Positions 36,857 through 63,849 of a stretch of DNA of 64,000 bases are shown piece after piece (the stretch's first letter is position 1; every line of letters starts with the position of its first letter). Source of the DNA: Armatimonadota bacterium (GTDB lineage Bacteria > Armatimonadota > Fimbriimonadia > Fimbriimonadales > Fimbriimonadaceae); the NCBI GenBank assembly GCA_017303935.1, contig JAFLBD010000003.1, positions 186,001 through 250,000 on the forward strand. The letters run 5' to 3'. The notes beneath the pieces are model-generated. The model was not told the origin of the DNA, did no database searches, and saw nothing but the letters and a program-made list of their open reading frames with translations. The position numbers were made by a program, and so were the translations under genes.

Positions 36857-37020
36857 GATTTTCTTCAAGAAATCACGGTTTTCTCTAAAGAAATGGTGGA
36901 TTTCTTAAAATTGCAACGACTATTTTCTAAAATTTGGTCGCTGATTCCTAAGATTCAGTTACTAATATTTAAATTTCAAAAGCATTTCCCTAAATTTCAG
37001 CAACATTTCTTTTGATCGCG
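36857..37020. repeat. Phased AT-rich array, ~21-bp period
   Basis: Eight degenerate copies of a T-rich/A-rich core (type TTTCNTAAANTTTC). Cores begin at about 36859, 36879, 36900, 36922, 36944, 36965, 36984 and 37004, a spacing of 19-22 bp, i.e. two helical turns. The first copies are nearly palindromic (TTTTCTTCAAGAAAT). The sequence between cores is unrelated (GC-richer). It fills the gap between the folC start and the tRNA gene, with no open reading frame in it. Nothing else was seen in the remaining 36750-36856 and 37021-37150 parts. Confidence 0.7.
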
Positions 37021-58350: not shown

Positions 58351-58992
58351 CTACCCAGCCAGCAGCAAACCGGAGCCGACGCCACCAGCCCACATCGAAA
58401 CAGGCAAACAAGCCACCGAAGTCAGACCCCGGCGCTTTGTCCGAACCCGTAACCAAATCGGAACACCAGGCTCGCCCAAAATCGAGAACTTGGTCGAGGT
58501 CACCGAATCCAGCAGAACCCAAGGCCCAGAGCCGTTGGGAGCGGTTTCCACCATAAAGAGGGTCCCTTTCACATTGCCGTTCCGGTTCCATCGCAGGCTC
58601 AGCTCGCCTTCGCCGTTCGCGGTGATCACCAGGTCGGTCACCGGAGCCGGGGCCGATCGCACAGGCGAAGATCGATGCGGCGCCAGCCGAAGCCCCGCCA
58701 AAATCTCGTCGGGAATGTTCTCGTCGGCGCGCCATCGCCGCGCAAAAGTGCCCACCAGATCCCGAACCACGTCGCGTTGAGCGTCCTTTTCGGTCACCGT
58801 CGCCTTCAGCGCGTTTTTGGCGGCCTGAGTCTGTTGCAGCTGCTTTTCAAACTGGCCGATCTGGGCTTGCAGCTCGGTCAGCTCCGGCTTATCCAGCCCC
58901 AAAGTGTCCGCGTACAGCTGCGCCGCGTCAAAAAACACCTTCAAACTGGCGAGATATTCCGCATCGCCCATCTTTTGCGTGACAAGTTCCAT
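58351..58992 (-). CDS. FN3-like domain protein with helical N-terminus (copy A)
   Basis: 213 residues from the ATG at 58992; the frame upstream is open but has no match in the paralogue at 62481-63122, which has the same length from its ATG. Residues ~1-105 are helical, and ~115-213 form an FN3-like beta sandwich (ANGEGELSLRWNRNGNVKGTLFMVET...), ending in W-A-G-G. The same WAGG ending is in copy B, and both carry L-A-P-H before the beta domain. Possibly an extracellular or phage-tail-associated binding protein. Function unknown. Confidence 0.7.
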   Translation of the reverse strand: MELVTQKMGDAEYLASLKVFFDAAQLYADTLGLDKPELTELQAQIGQFEKQLQQTQAAKNALKATVTEKDAQRDVVRDLVGTFARRWRADENIPDEILAGLRLAPHRSSPVRSAPAPVTDLVITANGEGELSLRWNRNGNVKGTLFMVETAPNGSGPWVLLDSVTSTKFSILGEPGVPIWLRVRTKRRGLTSVACLPVSMWAGGVGSGLLLAG

Positions 58993-59267
58993 AGCCTTAC
59001 TTTTAGGTTCGGCAGAGCCTGTCCCGATCTTCACCTTTTGGTCAAAATCGCCCGGTTTAGGTTCAACGGTGCCCGAATCCGCGTGGCATCCTCCGAATTC
59101 CGTCTGGCGTCTGGCGGAAGTGGCGTGGAGAAAGTCGACTTCCCTGCGGATTCGGTCGGCGAATGCGGCGCGTACGGCGGAAACCACGGGCCGTCATTCG
59201 GAATCTGCCAAGTTTCTTCCGACCGACACGGAGTTTCCGGCGGAATTCTTGCTTAGAATGCTGCCCT

Positions 59268-59312
59268 TCTCTCCCCTACCCCCTCATGCGCGGTCGCGCA
59301 TGAGGGGGGAAT
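59268..59312. repeat. Hairpin repeat (copy 2)
   Basis: CCCCCTCATGCGCG and its exact complement (59279-59292, 59295-59308; 12-bp stem with a 6-nt loop in practice). It shares the C-rich block and CTCAT/ATGAG arms with copy 1. The rest of 58993-59493 contains no convincing gene; the minus-strand reading from 58993 to 59187 extends the FN3 frame without homology to its paralogue. Confidence 0.55.
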
Positions 59313-59493
59313 TTATTTCGAATTGTCGTTTCTTAGAAGATGTGCACGTATAATCTCATTGGCAAGCCCGCCTCTTGGTAGTCTGCTTGAGGCTTGAAAG
59401 GAATGGCCGGTCAATGGTTCGTCATTCCGGGCTTGCTTCTCGTTTTCAATAGTTGCCCAGCTCCAAACATTCTGTATAACAACCTGTAGAACA

Positions 59494-59736
59494 ATGACCG
59501 AAGAAGAAATTAAGAAACGAGTCGCGGAGAACATGGCCAAACACCAAAATCTGGAAGGCATGCCGATTGATTACGACCTATCCGAGCAGATGCGGCAGCA
59601 CAACAAGAGACACTATGATCTCCTGAACGAGCACGGTGAGCCGATGAGCGCAAAGGAACTCGCAGAAATGGGCTGCCGTTCTGCCGCGACTGGCACAGAT
59701 TTGTCTGACCTGGAAGAATACGACCGCACGAACTAA
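59494..59736 (+). CDS. Small hypothetical acidic/helical protein
   Basis: 80 residues, strongly charged and helical (MTEEEIKKRVAENM). It resembles small regulators in shape only. It precedes the methyltransferase by 265 nt and runs in the same direction; the gap shows no further gene. Confidence 0.55.
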   Translation: MTEEEIKKRVAENMAKHQNLEGMPIDYDLSEQMRQHNKRHYDLLNEHGEPMSAKELAEMGCRSAATGTDLSDLEEYDRTN

Positions 59737-60001
59737 TCAAGATTACAATCGCCACGGCGGCGACCAATCAAGGTCGATAAATGCAGGCTCAGGTCAACGG
59801 ACCATCGACACGGTCAACCTTCACGCCCCGAGCGGACTCCCTCCGGACAAGCCTACGCTGTTTCATTATACGTTGCTCGTTCACGAGTAGCGGATTTGTG
59901 ACTGAATCTGCAATCGTCATAATCACCCGACCCGTTTTCAATGAACTTCGCCAGCCTAGGAACCATTGTTGTTAGTGCAAAGGTAAGCTCCGACCGGTAG
60001 C

Positions 60002-61363
60002 TTGACTACGTCCAATAACTACATGTACACGACCGCTCACGACCTGGACCGTCCGCAATGGGACATAAGCAGTCCACTTCATAACAAGCTCTCTGCTGAA
60101 GACAGGCCGATTCACGCTTGGTACCGTTTTGTACTTAGTTTTCCACCTCATTTGGTGCGCCAGTACCTAACAAAATTTCAAATCATGCCCGGCGATGTGG
60201 TCTTAGATCCATTCTGCGGTACCGGTACGACAATCGTTGAGTGTAAGAAGAATGGCATTGCGAGCGTGGGTTTCGAAGCAAATTCGATGGCTGCCCTCGC
60301 AAGTCGGACCAAGACTGATTGGTCGATCTCACCGGCCGAATTGTCGCGTATAGCCAGGTGGATCGCCGAACGAGCGAACAAAGAAATTGAAGAGTTGTTG
60401 CCAAGATCAGAGGCTGCAACTTTATCGAACATCGCCCGTGAGGCAGAGCAGTTTAACCTATACGGGCTCCGATGCCTAGATTGTGATGCCGCTGCTCTCA
60501 TTCTGAAGGACTCAATCAGTCCAAGGCCCCTGCACCGCGCACTTGTGCTAAAGAAATGGATAGCGTCCGCCCCAAGCGAGCTCACCAATCACCTACTTCT
60601 CGCATTGGCTTGGACACTTGTCACGAGAGCCGGAAACCTCAAATTCGGTCCTGAAGTGGGGGTCTCCAAACCCAAATTTGACGTCGATGTTGTGGGCGAA
60701 TGGCTGTCGCATTGTGAACGAATGAGTACGGACATCGAGACTTACAATGACCGACGTAATATCCCTTCACAGTTGATACAAGCAGATTCAAGGGATGTGT
60801 CTCAGCTGGAGGATTGTTCGATTTCAGCTGTTTTCACTTCACCGCCGTATCCAAACGAAAAGGATTACACGAGAACAACAAGGCTGGAATCGGTAATTCT
60901 GGGGCACATCAACAACAAGAAGGAATTACGCGAGTTAAAGCAAGGGCTGCTCAGATCGAATACCCGAAACGTGTACGTCGCCGATGACGACCACCTTTTC
61001 GTGAGAGATGTGCCGGAAATAGAACAAATTGCCCAGGAGATCGAGCGACGAAGGATTGCCCTCGGAAAGACTTCAGGATTTGAAAAGCTATATCACAAGG
61101 CTGCGAAACTCTATTTTGGCGGCATGGCGCGGCACCTCGACAGCCTGCGACCCAAATTGCGACCTGGAGCACTGCTGGGATATGTCGTTGGCGATCAAGC
61201 CTCATATCTACAAGTACACATCCCTACCGGTGACTTACTGGGCCAAATAGCCAAATCACAGGGTTACGAAGTCGTTTCACTCGATCTATTTCGAACAAGG
61301 CTTGCGACTGCAACGAAACAGCAACTTCGAGAGGAGGTACTCGTCCTTAGGTGGCCGGGATAA
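60002..61363 (+). CDS. DNA methyltransferase (amino-type, N4-cytosine/N6-adenine class)
   Basis: 453 residues. Motif I D-P-F-C-G-T-G-T-T at 69-77 (AdoMet binding) and motif IV T-S-P-P-Y-P-N at 279-285 (catalytic) are clear. About 200 residues lie between them, which would hold the target-recognition region, an alpha-class-like order. TSPPY favours N4-cytosine. TTG start at 60002; ATG at 60023 is an alternative. The nuclease gene follows after 2 nt, so it is probably the modification half of a type II system. Confidence 0.86.
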   Translation: MTTSNNYMYTTAHDLDRPQWDISSPLHNKLSAEDRPIHAWYRFVLSFPPHLVRQYLTKFQIMPGDVVLDPFCGTGTTIVECKKNGIASVGFEANSMAALASRTKTDWSISPAELSRIARWIAERANKEIEELLPRSEAATLSNIAREAEQFNLYGLRCLDCDAAALILKDSISPRPLHRALVLKKWIASAPSELTNHLLLALAWTLVTRAGNLKFGPEVGVSKPKFDVDVVGEWLSHCERMSTDIETYNDRRNIPSQLIQADSRDVSQLEDCSISAVFTSPPYPNEKDYTRTTRLESVILGHINNKKELRELKQGLLRSNTRNVYVADDDHLFVRDVPEIEQIAQEIERRRIALGKTSGFEKLYHKAAKLYFGGMARHLDSLRPKLRPGALLGYVVGDQASYLQVHIPTGDLLGQIAKSQGYEVVSLDLFRTRLATATKQQLREEVLVLRWPG

Positions 61364-61365
61364 TC

Positions 61366-62223
61366 ATGACGGCCAAAAGCATTATCATAGAGTCGATCTT
61401 TAAGATGAAATACGACCCCAAGGCCAAGGTGTTGTCGGACCCGATCGTCACCCTCGACGAAGTAGCAAAAGGCATTGAGGATTTTAACGCAGATCATCCG
61501 AACCAGAAAATGAGCGCGAAAAATCCCGCAAATTTCTTCAAGGACTTCGTTCGTGTTCGAGCGAGCGCTGAACGAAATTGGCCACCTTATGTACTGGAAT
61601 GCGGCTTCACCGCACGCCAAGTGACCGGGAATGACGCCTGTTTCGAATTTGTCCGAATCGCCGATGGCCAATCCTCAGCATTTCCGCCCGTCGTTTTTGC
61701 ATCACCAGGCGCTGATACGCCACGACATGCAATTGAAAGCGTCAGTTTGCCTCTGGCCTCGCGTCGGTTGGGCCGCTCGGACGAGCCTTGGCTGATTCAG
61801 GTTATTGCTCGGCTTCGGATCGTCGAGTCTCACTTTTCACTGGTGTCAAAGAGGTCGATCAGGCAACTTGATCTTCTTCAAATGAGCGTCAAATTAGCGA
61901 AGACCGAAATCGATGCGCTCTTTCTTGCTCATGAAGAGGTTACTCCAGGTACCTATCGTGAAGTTATTGTGACGTGCGAAGCTAAAGGGCGGAAGGATGA
62001 TATCTTGGAAGACCAGATATTACGGCAAGCCAAGGCACCATTTGGAATGAGGCAGGTCACGCAGGACATTGTAATTCCGATCGCTGTCAAATGCATAAAC
62101 CCGTCAGAAATCTATGTGGTGGAATTTGAACCCGTCGAACGTTCCTCATTCGCGGGGATCGATAACCTTACGATTGCTAGTGACTCGGTATTTGAAATTC
62201 GCCCACCTGTGCCGGGCATCTAG
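61366..62223 (+). CDS. Putative type II restriction endonuclease (PD-(D/E)XK fold)
   Basis: 285 residues from the ATG at 61366 (a GTG at 61351 would overlap the methyltransferase). The core motif is D183 in TEIDALFLA, about 20 residues later VTCEAKGR with E205 and K207, and Q217 in EDQILRQ, a D-x(21)-E-x-K arrangement of PD-(D/E)XK nucleases. The N-terminal region (NPANFFKDFVR...NWP) may contact DNA. Partner of the methyltransferase ahead. The cleavage site is unknown. Confidence 0.72.
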   Translation: MTAKSIIIESIFKMKYDPKAKVLSDPIVTLDEVAKGIEDFNADHPNQKMSAKNPANFFKDFVRVRASAERNWPPYVLECGFTARQVTGNDACFEFVRIADGQSSAFPPVVFASPGADTPRHAIESVSLPLASRRLGRSDEPWLIQVIARLRIVESHFSLVSKRSIRQLDLLQMSVKLAKTEIDALFLAHEEVTPGTYREVIVTCEAKGRKDDILEDQILRQAKAPFGMRQVTQDIVIPIAVKCINPSEIYVVEFEPVERSSFAGIDNLTIASDSVFEIRPPVPGI

Positions 62224-62225
62224 CT

Positions 62226-62330
62226 TCAGTCCCAGACGATGACGAGACTCTGATTATCCTCCGGGACCAAGCCGAAGTCAGTTAGCTTTGGTGCGTCGGA
62301 GAATTCGGGCTCTTCGAAGTTGTACGTCAT
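62226..62330 (-). pseudogene. Truncated copy of the MTYNFEEPEF membrane-protein gene
   Basis: A 34-codon frame that starts MTYNFEEPEF-S-D-APKL, with 10 identical first residues to the gene at 63397-63849 and then divergence to a TGA. The shared leader AAAGGTATACAT lies 38 nt upstream here (62368-62379) and 14 nt upstream of the intact copy (63864-63875). It faces the nuclease gene tail to tail. Most likely a decayed duplicate, perhaps still expressed as a short peptide. Confidence 0.65.
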
Positions 62331-62480
62331 TGAACTGTGAACGCGGAGTCGCGCCAATCGCTAAGCAATGTATACCTTTAGCTGGGTGATTTTGAACTGT
62401 CTCACTAAAAATCCCGCAGAGGGGCGCCGATATCACCAATAAGTGCTCCGACTTCGATGGCGGAGGACGGGGAGACAACC

Positions 62481-63122
62481 ATGTCCTACATAACAGAAGA
62501 AACTGCTGATGCTCCGTTGGTGACAAAGCTGACCAACTTTAAGGCGGCGAGTGAGGCAAACAAGACCGTGCTCGGTTTGACGCCTGCTGATATCACCACG
62601 ATGGGCACACTTTACACCGCTTTTTCGACCGCTTATGCTGCGAGCGAAAACGCCAAAGCTGCTGCCAAGCAAGCCGTGACCGCCAAGAACGCCGCCAAAA
62701 AGGCCGCCCGAGCCAATGTGGCCGGTTGGTCCAAGATTTGGCGCGCCAATCCTGCCATCTCCGATGCGATTTTGGATGCGCTGATGTTGGCTCCGCACAA
62801 CACTCCGGCCAGCACCACGCCGCCAACCACTCCCACCAATTTGGTGGCTACGGTGAATGGCGAAGGCGTGATCTCACTGAAGTGGGGCCGAAACGGCAAC
62901 AAGCCCGGCACCATCTTTAACATCGAGACCTCTGATTCGCCTTCGGGCAATTGGACGATCTTTGATTCGACCACGAAGGCCAAGTTTGATTACGCTGGAA
63001 CTCCGGGCACCTCGGTTTGGTTCCGGATTGTTGCCAAGTGCGACGGTCAGTCTGCTGCTCCGACCAATCCGATTTCGGTTTGGGCTGGTGGTTCGGGCCG
63101 ATCGTTGAAGTTTGCTGCTTAA
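62481..63122 (+). CDS. FN3-like domain protein with helical N-terminus (copy B)
   Basis: 213 residues from ATG 62481 (GGAG 6 nt upstream). Helical, Ala-rich N-terminus (residues ~40-95: AAAKQAVTAKNAAKKAARAN), L-A-P-H, then the FN3-like domain (VNGEGVISLKWGRNGNKPGTIFNIET) ending ISVWAGGSGRSLKFAA. Paralogue of 58351-58992, with the same domain order and length. Divergent from the truncated gene at 62226-62330. Confidence 0.74.
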   Translation: MSYITEETADAPLVTKLTNFKAASEANKTVLGLTPADITTMGTLYTAFSTAYAASENAKAAAKQAVTAKNAAKKAARANVAGWSKIWRANPAISDAILDALMLAPHNTPASTTPPTTPTNLVATVNGEGVISLKWGRNGNKPGTIFNIETSDSPSGNWTIFDSTTKAKFDYAGTPGTSVWFRIVAKCDGQSAAPTNPISVWAGGSGRSLKFAA

Positions 63123-63396: not shown

Positions 63397-63849
63397 CTAA
63401 TTCGCGTGTGCGGTCTCAAAGATCTCAATCAGAGGCTGTAATGTATCCCGATATTGCACTTGGCTCGGCGCGCGAGCACGAACCCGCCTTCGCCAAACCG
63501 CCATTCGTTCGGCGAAGCGGTGTTCTCGTTGGCTCTGATATTTGGATTCCCATTTGTAACAGATCAGGCCAAGCACCACCATCATCACGCCACATGCAAA
63601 ACAAAACGGCCAAAAGTAGTTGCCGAGTGCCTTAGCATTGACGAAGATCGGCGGCAACGTCAGCGGAAGAACAGGGATCGTACGGATCATCGGGACCCAG
63701 GTGATATCCACTGGCGCCGGGATAAACCACGACGCAGACTTGATGGCCTTATCGACCTCGGCCAGGTCCTCATAATCTTTGGCCGTTAATCCGAACTGGA
63801 CTAGCTTCGGGGCTTCAGGAAACTCGGGCTCTTCGAAGTTGTACGTCAT
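63397..63849 (-). CDS. Membrane protein of unknown function, MTYNFEEPEF family (ends at TAG)
   Basis: 150 residues to the TAG at 63397-63399. Hydrophilic N-terminus, one or two hydrophobic segments (~65-110, ALGNYFWPFCFACGVMMVVLGLICYKW), and a basic C-terminal helix (RHRFAERMAVWRRRVRARA). No family recognised. A truncated relative lies at 62226-62330. See the neighbouring entry for the open frame behind its stop. Confidence 0.62.
   Translation of the reverse strand: MTYNFEEPEFPEAPKLVQFGLTAKDYEDLAEVDKAIKSASWFIPAPVDITWVPMIRTIPVLPLTLPPIFVNAKALGNYFWPFCFACGVMMVVLGLICYKWESKYQSQREHRFAERMAVWRRRVRARAPSQVQYRDTLQPLIEIFETAHAN

Follow-up and report, generated by a model that had tools for sequence, protein, structure and literature searches.

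A restriction-modification pair as probable exchangeable cargo at a recurrent site of defence genes marked by a 21-bp-period array and an FN3-like gene

Introduction

Why does a restriction-modification (R-M) gene pair lie between two related genes of unequal sequence but equal length, placed head to head? The question is raised by positions 58351-63122 of a 64,000-nucleotide stretch, the window (C3:186001-250000 of genome G000, 2.56 Mb), which was compared with its relatives, metagenome-assembled genomes (MAGs) of Fimbriimonadaceae, Armatimonadota. In this locus, head-to-head genes of FN3-like proteins (FN3L) surround an 80-residue open reading frame (ORF), a DNA methyltransferase gene and a nuclease-like gene. 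A sequence-only reading had proposed either an island exchanged by recombination between the two paralogues or a defence cassette in which the FN3-like proteins take part. In our opinion, the R-M pair is rather probably exchangeable cargo in a recurrent hot spot, filled mostly with defence genes and marked by a tandem array together with an FN3L gene. FN3L is no R-M subunit, since its genes are scattered (11 places in G000, matches in 19 of the 61 relatives), yet it is not a neutral neighbour either.

Defence genes on the 5' side of FN3L genes

The association was counted over 114 FN3L genes and 49 loci of PF01555 (N6/N4-methyltransferases) in 17 FN3L-bearing genomes. Eight of the 49 loci are 5' of an FN3L gene at a distance of at most 3 kb, against 0.34 expected (Poisson P ~3e-9), and none is 3' of one at this distance. 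The eight cases are the window, G001:C49, C110, C163, G020:C3, G291:C61, G291:C101 and G544:C37. The FN3L gene of C110 was found solely through the methyltransferase on its contig; without this case and the window, 6 of 47 loci are still 5' of FN3L. Thirteen weak FN3L rows of G291 (E 7e-9 to 8e-4) were left out, and keeping them adds one 5' and one 3' case. G292, with 27 FN3L genes and no PF01555 locus, stands outside the sum and does not affect the result, G293 appears to be G026 under another handle (identical contigs and places), and the methyltransferase search did not cover G022, G027, G050, G053 and G058, which have one to three FN3L matches each.

Defence genes are thus enriched over chance 5' of FN3L. 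The nearest 5' ORFs (45 scanned) matched 75 PADLOC models at E<=1e-6, many of them stemming from the same few methyltransferases, and the nearest 3' ORFs (48 scanned) matched 4. Pfam searches of 5' cargo, chosen as examples by reading neighbourhoods and not as a count, identified a methyltransferase fused to Mrr, FRG, DUF4062, PIN_8, type III mod-res, further mod/res genes and methyltransferases, an EcoRI methylase with GmrSD-HNH, HsdR, ApeA with a methyltransferase, and Cas9. The last is a 1037-residue protein encoded 5' of an FN3L-like gene in Bacteroidota (L262:6946-10059, G544:C6).

Features of the locus

The following features were recognized in the window.

58351-58992, minus strand: FN3-A, FN3-like protein of 213 residues with a helical N-terminal half and an FN3 domain
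59078-59245, minus strand: decayed 21-bp tandem array 5' of FN3-A, from periodicity against shuffles
59279-59309, no strand: GC-rich hairpin of a type common in intergenic DNA of these genomes
59494-59736, plus strand: charged protein of 80 residues, from the ORF
60023-61363, plus strand: DNA methyltransferase of N6/N4 type, 446 residues, from TSPPY motif IV, Pfam and PADLOC
61366-62223, plus strand: restriction endonuclease-like protein, 285 residues, from an E-x-D...(C)E-x-K motif
62235-62330, minus strand: remnant, the first 32 codons of a paralogue of the 150-residue gene at 63397-63849, ending beside the nuclease stop codon
62405-62432, plus strand: predicted sigma-28-like promoter of FN3-B, CTAAAA-N13-GCGCCGATA, from a de novo two-block motif of 46 FN3L leaders
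62481-63122, plus strand: FN3-B, FN3-like protein of 213 residues, from the ORF, with no array directly upstream
63397-63849, minus strand: membrane-type protein of 150 residues, intact copy of the remnant at 62235-62330

The earlier description of two 213-residue FN3-like proteins in opposite orientation around the R-M pair and a small charged gene agrees with these coordinates; the 5' ends of both genes point inward. Their common length and a shared WAGG near the end were also confirmed, the motif standing about 10 residues upstream of the C-terminus in both proteins, which are 37% identical. In the family tree FN3-A is sister to G001_L040_5940 and G003_L054 (support 100/99), and FN3-B to G001_L040_2845 (support 96/94).

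The remnant resembles the 150-residue gene with 62.5% identity (tblastn, E 2e-9), and the two flank FN3-B. Among the matches listed from nine genomes searched, this gene was found in G000 only. The truncated paralogue between the nuclease and FN3-B is probably an insertion scar. No credible family was found for the 80-residue charged ORF in profile searches. GC-rich hairpins of the CCCCTC...GAGGGG type occur at many intergenic loci; in L042/L049 they border the shared FN3L unit on its left.

The restriction-modification pair

The methyltransferase matches Pfam PF01555 (4.3e-12) and PADLOC MTase_II (3.2e-35), and with DPFCGTGT at 60206 and TSPPY at 60836 both the S-adenosylmethionine and the catalytic motifs are present. 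Improved start codons are ATG 60023 for the methyltransferase and ATG 61366 for the nuclease. Judged from the TSPPY motif, the target is likely N4-cytosine, and a nuclease homologue beside a C5 methyltransferase fits a cytosine target. Relatives of the methyltransferase are 57-78% identical to it.

The nuclease ORF has no family match in Pfam, NCBIfam and PADLOC searches, and its single-sequence fold (predicted local distance difference test, pLDDT, 31.6) was too poor to use. Its E-x-D and (C)E-x-K, which would make up an active site of PD-(D/E)XK type, are kept in six homologues, the window included. In the phylum sample of 291 genomes, seven contain the family, one of them with a weak and broken match. 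In five of the seven matches (window, L041, L135, L136 and L138) the same methyltransferase adjoins it; the homologue of L137/L142 adjoins a C5 methyltransferase, and the match in L139 covers 77 residues and contains two stop codons. By its anatomy, the pair is a predicted type II R-M system. At L142:5202-8262 (G081) the C5-cytosine methyltransferase was named by eye, and the nuclease type thus pairs with two methyltransferase classes.

Genome G001 contains an R-M pair 76-78% identical to that of the window, which abuts another FN3L gene than the orthologues of FN3-A and FN3-B. No FN3L gene was found near the four R-M relatives examined outside the genus. Elsewhere in G000, a type III-like mod-res pair (L200:4399-9279, C3 near 298752) lies beside SocA/Panacea-like genes with no FN3L within ~5 kb, and the similar mod-res pair of L250 does adjoin FN3L.

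The FN3L family and its promoter

FN3L genes are mostly solitary and stand between other, often housekeeping, genes, with a median gap to the next ORF of 260 bp on the 5' side and 85 bp on the 3' side. Of 22 family members, 10 match Pfam fn3 at E<=1, the best of them at 4.2e-6. The AlphaFold model of FN3-B, made from 13 alignment rows (mean pLDDT 82.8, predicted template modelling score 0.42), consists of a long helical hairpin (10-100) and a beta domain (121-201), and the best PDB matches of the latter are FN3 domains. According to the model, FN3L is predicted to carry an FN3 beta-sandwich domain.

De novo motif discovery in 46 leaders of FN3L genes from Fimbriimonadaceae gave a common two-block motif, CTAAAG-N13-tnGCCGA(A/T)A. 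Its log-likelihood was +52, compared with -19 in downstream controls and -56 in shuffled sequences. The sigma-28 (FliA) consensus is TAAA-N15/16-GCCGATAA. The leader motif fits this consensus and is a predicted sigma-28-like promoter; G000 encodes a FliA/WhiG equivalog (229 bits, cut-off 189.6).

An origin of FN3L as a phage protein was considered and rejected: there was no relative in viral contigs, and PHROGs matches were weak (best E 0.0012, in the FN3 part). No relatives were found on plasmids. An Rfam scan of 131 kb for known RNA in the leader or array gave one tRNA and nothing else.

Arrays with a 21-bp period

Most FN3L genes, in Armatimonadota as well as in Kapaibacterium, are preceded by a tandem array with a fixed period of 21 bp. 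The periodicity scan covered 693 kb, namely the fetched loci and the window. All 27 periodicity peaks located 0-700 bp 5' of FN3L have a lag of 21, 42 or 63, whereas the 26 peaks elsewhere have assorted lags, 7 of them 21 or 42. The mean best match over 76 upstream regions is 0.537 at lag 21 and 0.326-0.360 at all other lags from 12 to 30. When 89 distinct loci were examined, 50 of 83 had an array no more than 400 bp away on the 5' side, and 4 of 81 had one at such a distance on the 3' side. The array of FN3-A has best lags of 42, 63 and 21 and a score of 0.484, compared with 0.323 +- 0.029 in shuffled sequences, none of 2000 shuffles reaching the observed value.

Arrays stand at all nine FN3L loci with upstream sequence in Candidatus Kapaibacterium (G291), and at only part of the FN3L loci in the Armatimonadota genomes G292 and G293. 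Of eight weak FN3L-like or truncated genes, seven have a best upstream lag of 21 or 42; the array of L189 is on the opposite side. The repeat unit is specific for each locus and the period constant: even the paralogues L010 and L011, with 72% DNA identity, have unrelated arrays, which argues against sequence-specific binding by FN3L. Within the arrays about half of the unit is conserved and about half variable, the contrast being 0.165 as compared with 0.131 +- 0.006 after permutation.

These data bear on the idea that FN3L takes part in the function of the defence cassettes, as a sensor or carrier protein for instance, with the array as its regulatory or binding DNA. The 5' enrichment in two phyla and the persistence of arrays at very distant FN3L relatives agree with it; the unrelated arrays of L010 and L011, the 11 FN3L places against 2 PF01555 loci in G000, the FN3L-free surroundings of the four R-M relatives outside the genus, cargo types unrelated to each other, and the lack of any PADLOC family of note disagree. 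We regard this explanation as quite improbable, and the direct defence role suggested by the sequence-only reading found no support, 105 of the 114 FN3L genes having no methyltransferase near.

Two other interpretations of the arrays were rejected. As a coding N-terminal extension of FN3L, the array would need an open reading frame, which exists in some loci only, with intervening stop codons in L128 and others; a fixed phase of the array to the start codon is weak (R 0.28, n 47, p ~0.025). The candidate arrays of L248 (a masked N run) and L040 (a 7-bp repeat) were discarded.

Stand-alone arrays were also noticed. At 36867-37000 of the window a 21-bp-period array (0.53) separates a folC-like gene from the next locus, and neither an FN3L gene nor a remnant of one is nearby; others are at L052:2642 and L059:13850. 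In G035 (L073:10304-13951) such an array adjoins an EcoRI-type methyltransferase, named by eye, with no adjacent FN3L. A search for FN3L remnants at stand-alone arrays gave none with E below 0.1 at five of six tested, and the match at L055 is a known intact gene.

Order of array, cargo and FN3L

In six loci (L044, L198, L209, L211, L250 and L251) the cargo lies between the FN3L gene and an array 2.0-7.4 kb away; the cargo of L209 is an 823-residue gene with no Pfam family. The window would share this array-cargo-FN3L order if the array of FN3-A is counted for FN3-B. The genes between array and FN3L in L259, L073 and L055 are, as far as seen, not of defence type.

Moving units and changing cargo

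G001:C40 and G003:C27 share, at unrelated sites, a unit reaching from array to terminator, with 92% identity over 1010 bp. For comparison, identity is 69-72% in a syntenic region of the two genomes (L043/L062). Between the FN3-A relatives of G001 and G003 identity is 94% as far as the stop codon; one of them stands beside tuf and the other beside a different gene.

In the congener G001, the orthologues of FN3-A and FN3-B, as judged from the tree, are also head to head, at another site, and enclose cargo different from R-M. It is a 759-residue ORF, SEC-C/nuclease-like by eye, with no Pfam match over the 667 residues scanned. At the fusA-p178/tuf site this island occupies 4.1 kb between p178 and tuf in G001, and G004, a third species, has 175 bp at the same place, the flanks being 92% and 97.6% identical. 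No target duplication was found at the junctions. The island is also absent from this site in G000 (fusA then tuf) and in G003, which has another gene there. In addition, two FN3L genes of G001, on contigs C110 and C163, have 87.6% protein and 86.6% DNA identity; their homology begins at the FN3L promoter, and the neighbouring R-M differs, a type III mod-res in one contig and the type II relative of the window pair in the other. The same flanks thus occur with different cargo or with none, as in a defence hot spot.

The position of an R-M pair between two genes of a multi-copy family might be pure chance. R-M pairs are often mobile, and 11 FN3L places in 2.56 Mb offer opportunities for such a coincidence. 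Against it stand the orthologous FN3L pair around other cargo in G001 and the 5' association (P ~3e-9), with 6 of 47 loci left after removal of the window and C110. A mere coincidence seems extremely improbable.

The proposal of exchange by recombination between the paralogues can be retained in part. Exchange of the middle agrees with the other cargo in G001 and with C110/C163. The route through the paralogues is not supported, FN3-A and FN3-B being only 37% identical in protein; paralogues within one genome appear too different to recombine well. The picture that was expected to contradict the proposal, FN3-like genes scattered with no association with defence genes, is correct as to the scattering and incorrect as to the association, 8 of 49 PF01555 loci being 5' of FN3L.

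No integrase, transposase, recombinase or terminal repeats were seen in the islands read. Contig ends come within 600 bp of 5 of the 19 FN3L genes of G003 (expected 1.5%, P 7e-6). Places that vary between strains would give this result, though it may have other causes in the assembly. Both ends of contig G291:C42 (L195, 6458 bp) fall within FN3L genes, which stand head to head and enclose a thiolase operon and a BrnT-like toxin gene, a geometry like that of the window with different cargo. Dozens of proteins of G001, G003 and G004 share a dockerin-like C-terminal segment (query 846-996).

Hot spot or passive survival

The observed distribution may also be explained passively. Solitary, dispensable FN3L genes with long upstream gaps would be places where acquired genes, mostly of defence, survive, the array and FN3L being uninvolved. 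This fits the longer median gap on the 5' side, the lack of a recombinase or target duplication in the islands read, and the cargo found beyond the array at four loci. The 5'/3' contrast of 8 to 0 within 3 kb speaks against it; the breakpoint at the promoter edge of the 87% identical FN3L pair and the six array-cargo-FN3L orders look more specific than random survival. The enrichment was measured against chance expectation and against the 3' side, so this passive explanation is still serious, although we consider it unlikely.

Several observations weigh against the hot spot itself. There is no own array at FN3-B or at the FN3L pair of G001, cargo lies beyond the array in L052, L197, L202 and L216, and the array of L249 is on the 3' side. 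Those 105 of 114 FN3L genes are free of a PF01555 methyltransferase within 3 kb 5'. Some filled 5' flanks contain non-defence genes (the thiolase operon of L195, metal efflux in L064, and L259, as read from ORFs), and an AAA/DUF4276 pair on the 3' side of FN3L in L215 contradicts a strict 5' rule. The G001 MAG is 78% complete with 4% contamination, so that C110 and C163 may come from different strains. Genus neighbours of the window site are lacking, and hence no empty version of it was seen.

Taking both sides together, we still prefer the hot spot. Its unit consists of a 21-bp-period array, a predicted sigma-28-like promoter (in Fimbriimonadaceae), the FN3L gene and a terminator. The 5' side of FN3L, often the space between array and promoter, would be where accessory genes settle, chiefly those of R-M and other defence systems. 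In the window, two such units stand head to head with a common 5' space, which the R-M pair would have filled, cutting a small membrane gene. Cargo may be exchanged through recombination of the flanking DNA, one arm being the conserved FN3L gene and the other the array or a neighbouring gene; the array may help to make the region recombination-prone, or may only mark an old mobile unit. FN3L would have a motility-type or surface function and be a bystander to defence, not one of its subunits.

More tentatively, array and FN3L could form an undescribed small mobile unit common to different phyla. Such a unit would open between array and FN3L promoter to take up or exchange defence modules (R-M types I, II and III, GmrSD, ApeA, CRISPR-Cas9), the array acting through its period of two helical turns and not through its sequence. 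This idea is possible, though doubtful.

If the hot spot is real, FN3L with its array is a sequence tag for sites of antiviral genes in two distant phyla, and new defence systems could be found by looking 5' of FN3L. The strict 21-bp period, kept upstream of one protein family across phyla with a repeat sequence changing at each locus, is a puzzle.

Comparison with known systems

A literature search, scant on subscription papers, found no account of 21-bp arrays with an FN3 family or of a link between that family and defence genes, which is weak evidence of novelty. The pair itself resembles type II R-M systems in its adjacent methyltransferase and nuclease genes, conserved together in relatives, and differs in the nuclease, which belongs to none of the Pfam, NCBIfam or PADLOC families searched. 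An integrative mobile element would be expected to have an integrase or transposase and a target duplication; the islands read have neither enzyme, and the G001/G004 junctions no duplication. A composite transposon has two related inverted units around cargo, and related inverted units flank the cargo here too, but they are protein genes with 37% identity and no transposase or terminal repeats were seen.

A minisatellite within a miniature inverted-repeat transposable element of Porphyromonas gingivalis (PMC4596501) is likewise a short tandem array inside a repeated bacterial unit; here the repeat keeps its 21-bp period while its sequence changes at each locus, and the array is followed by a protein gene.

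The closest likeness is with defence islands and integration hot spots, such as those of the E. coli pan-genome (PMC10121019) and of P2/P4 phages (PMC9122126), which combine constant neighbour genes with varying antiviral cargo and with filled and empty sites. There the marker is a tRNA, integrase or phage gene, whereas here it would be a 21-bp-period array with an FN3L gene, a combination met at many sites in a genome and in two phyla.

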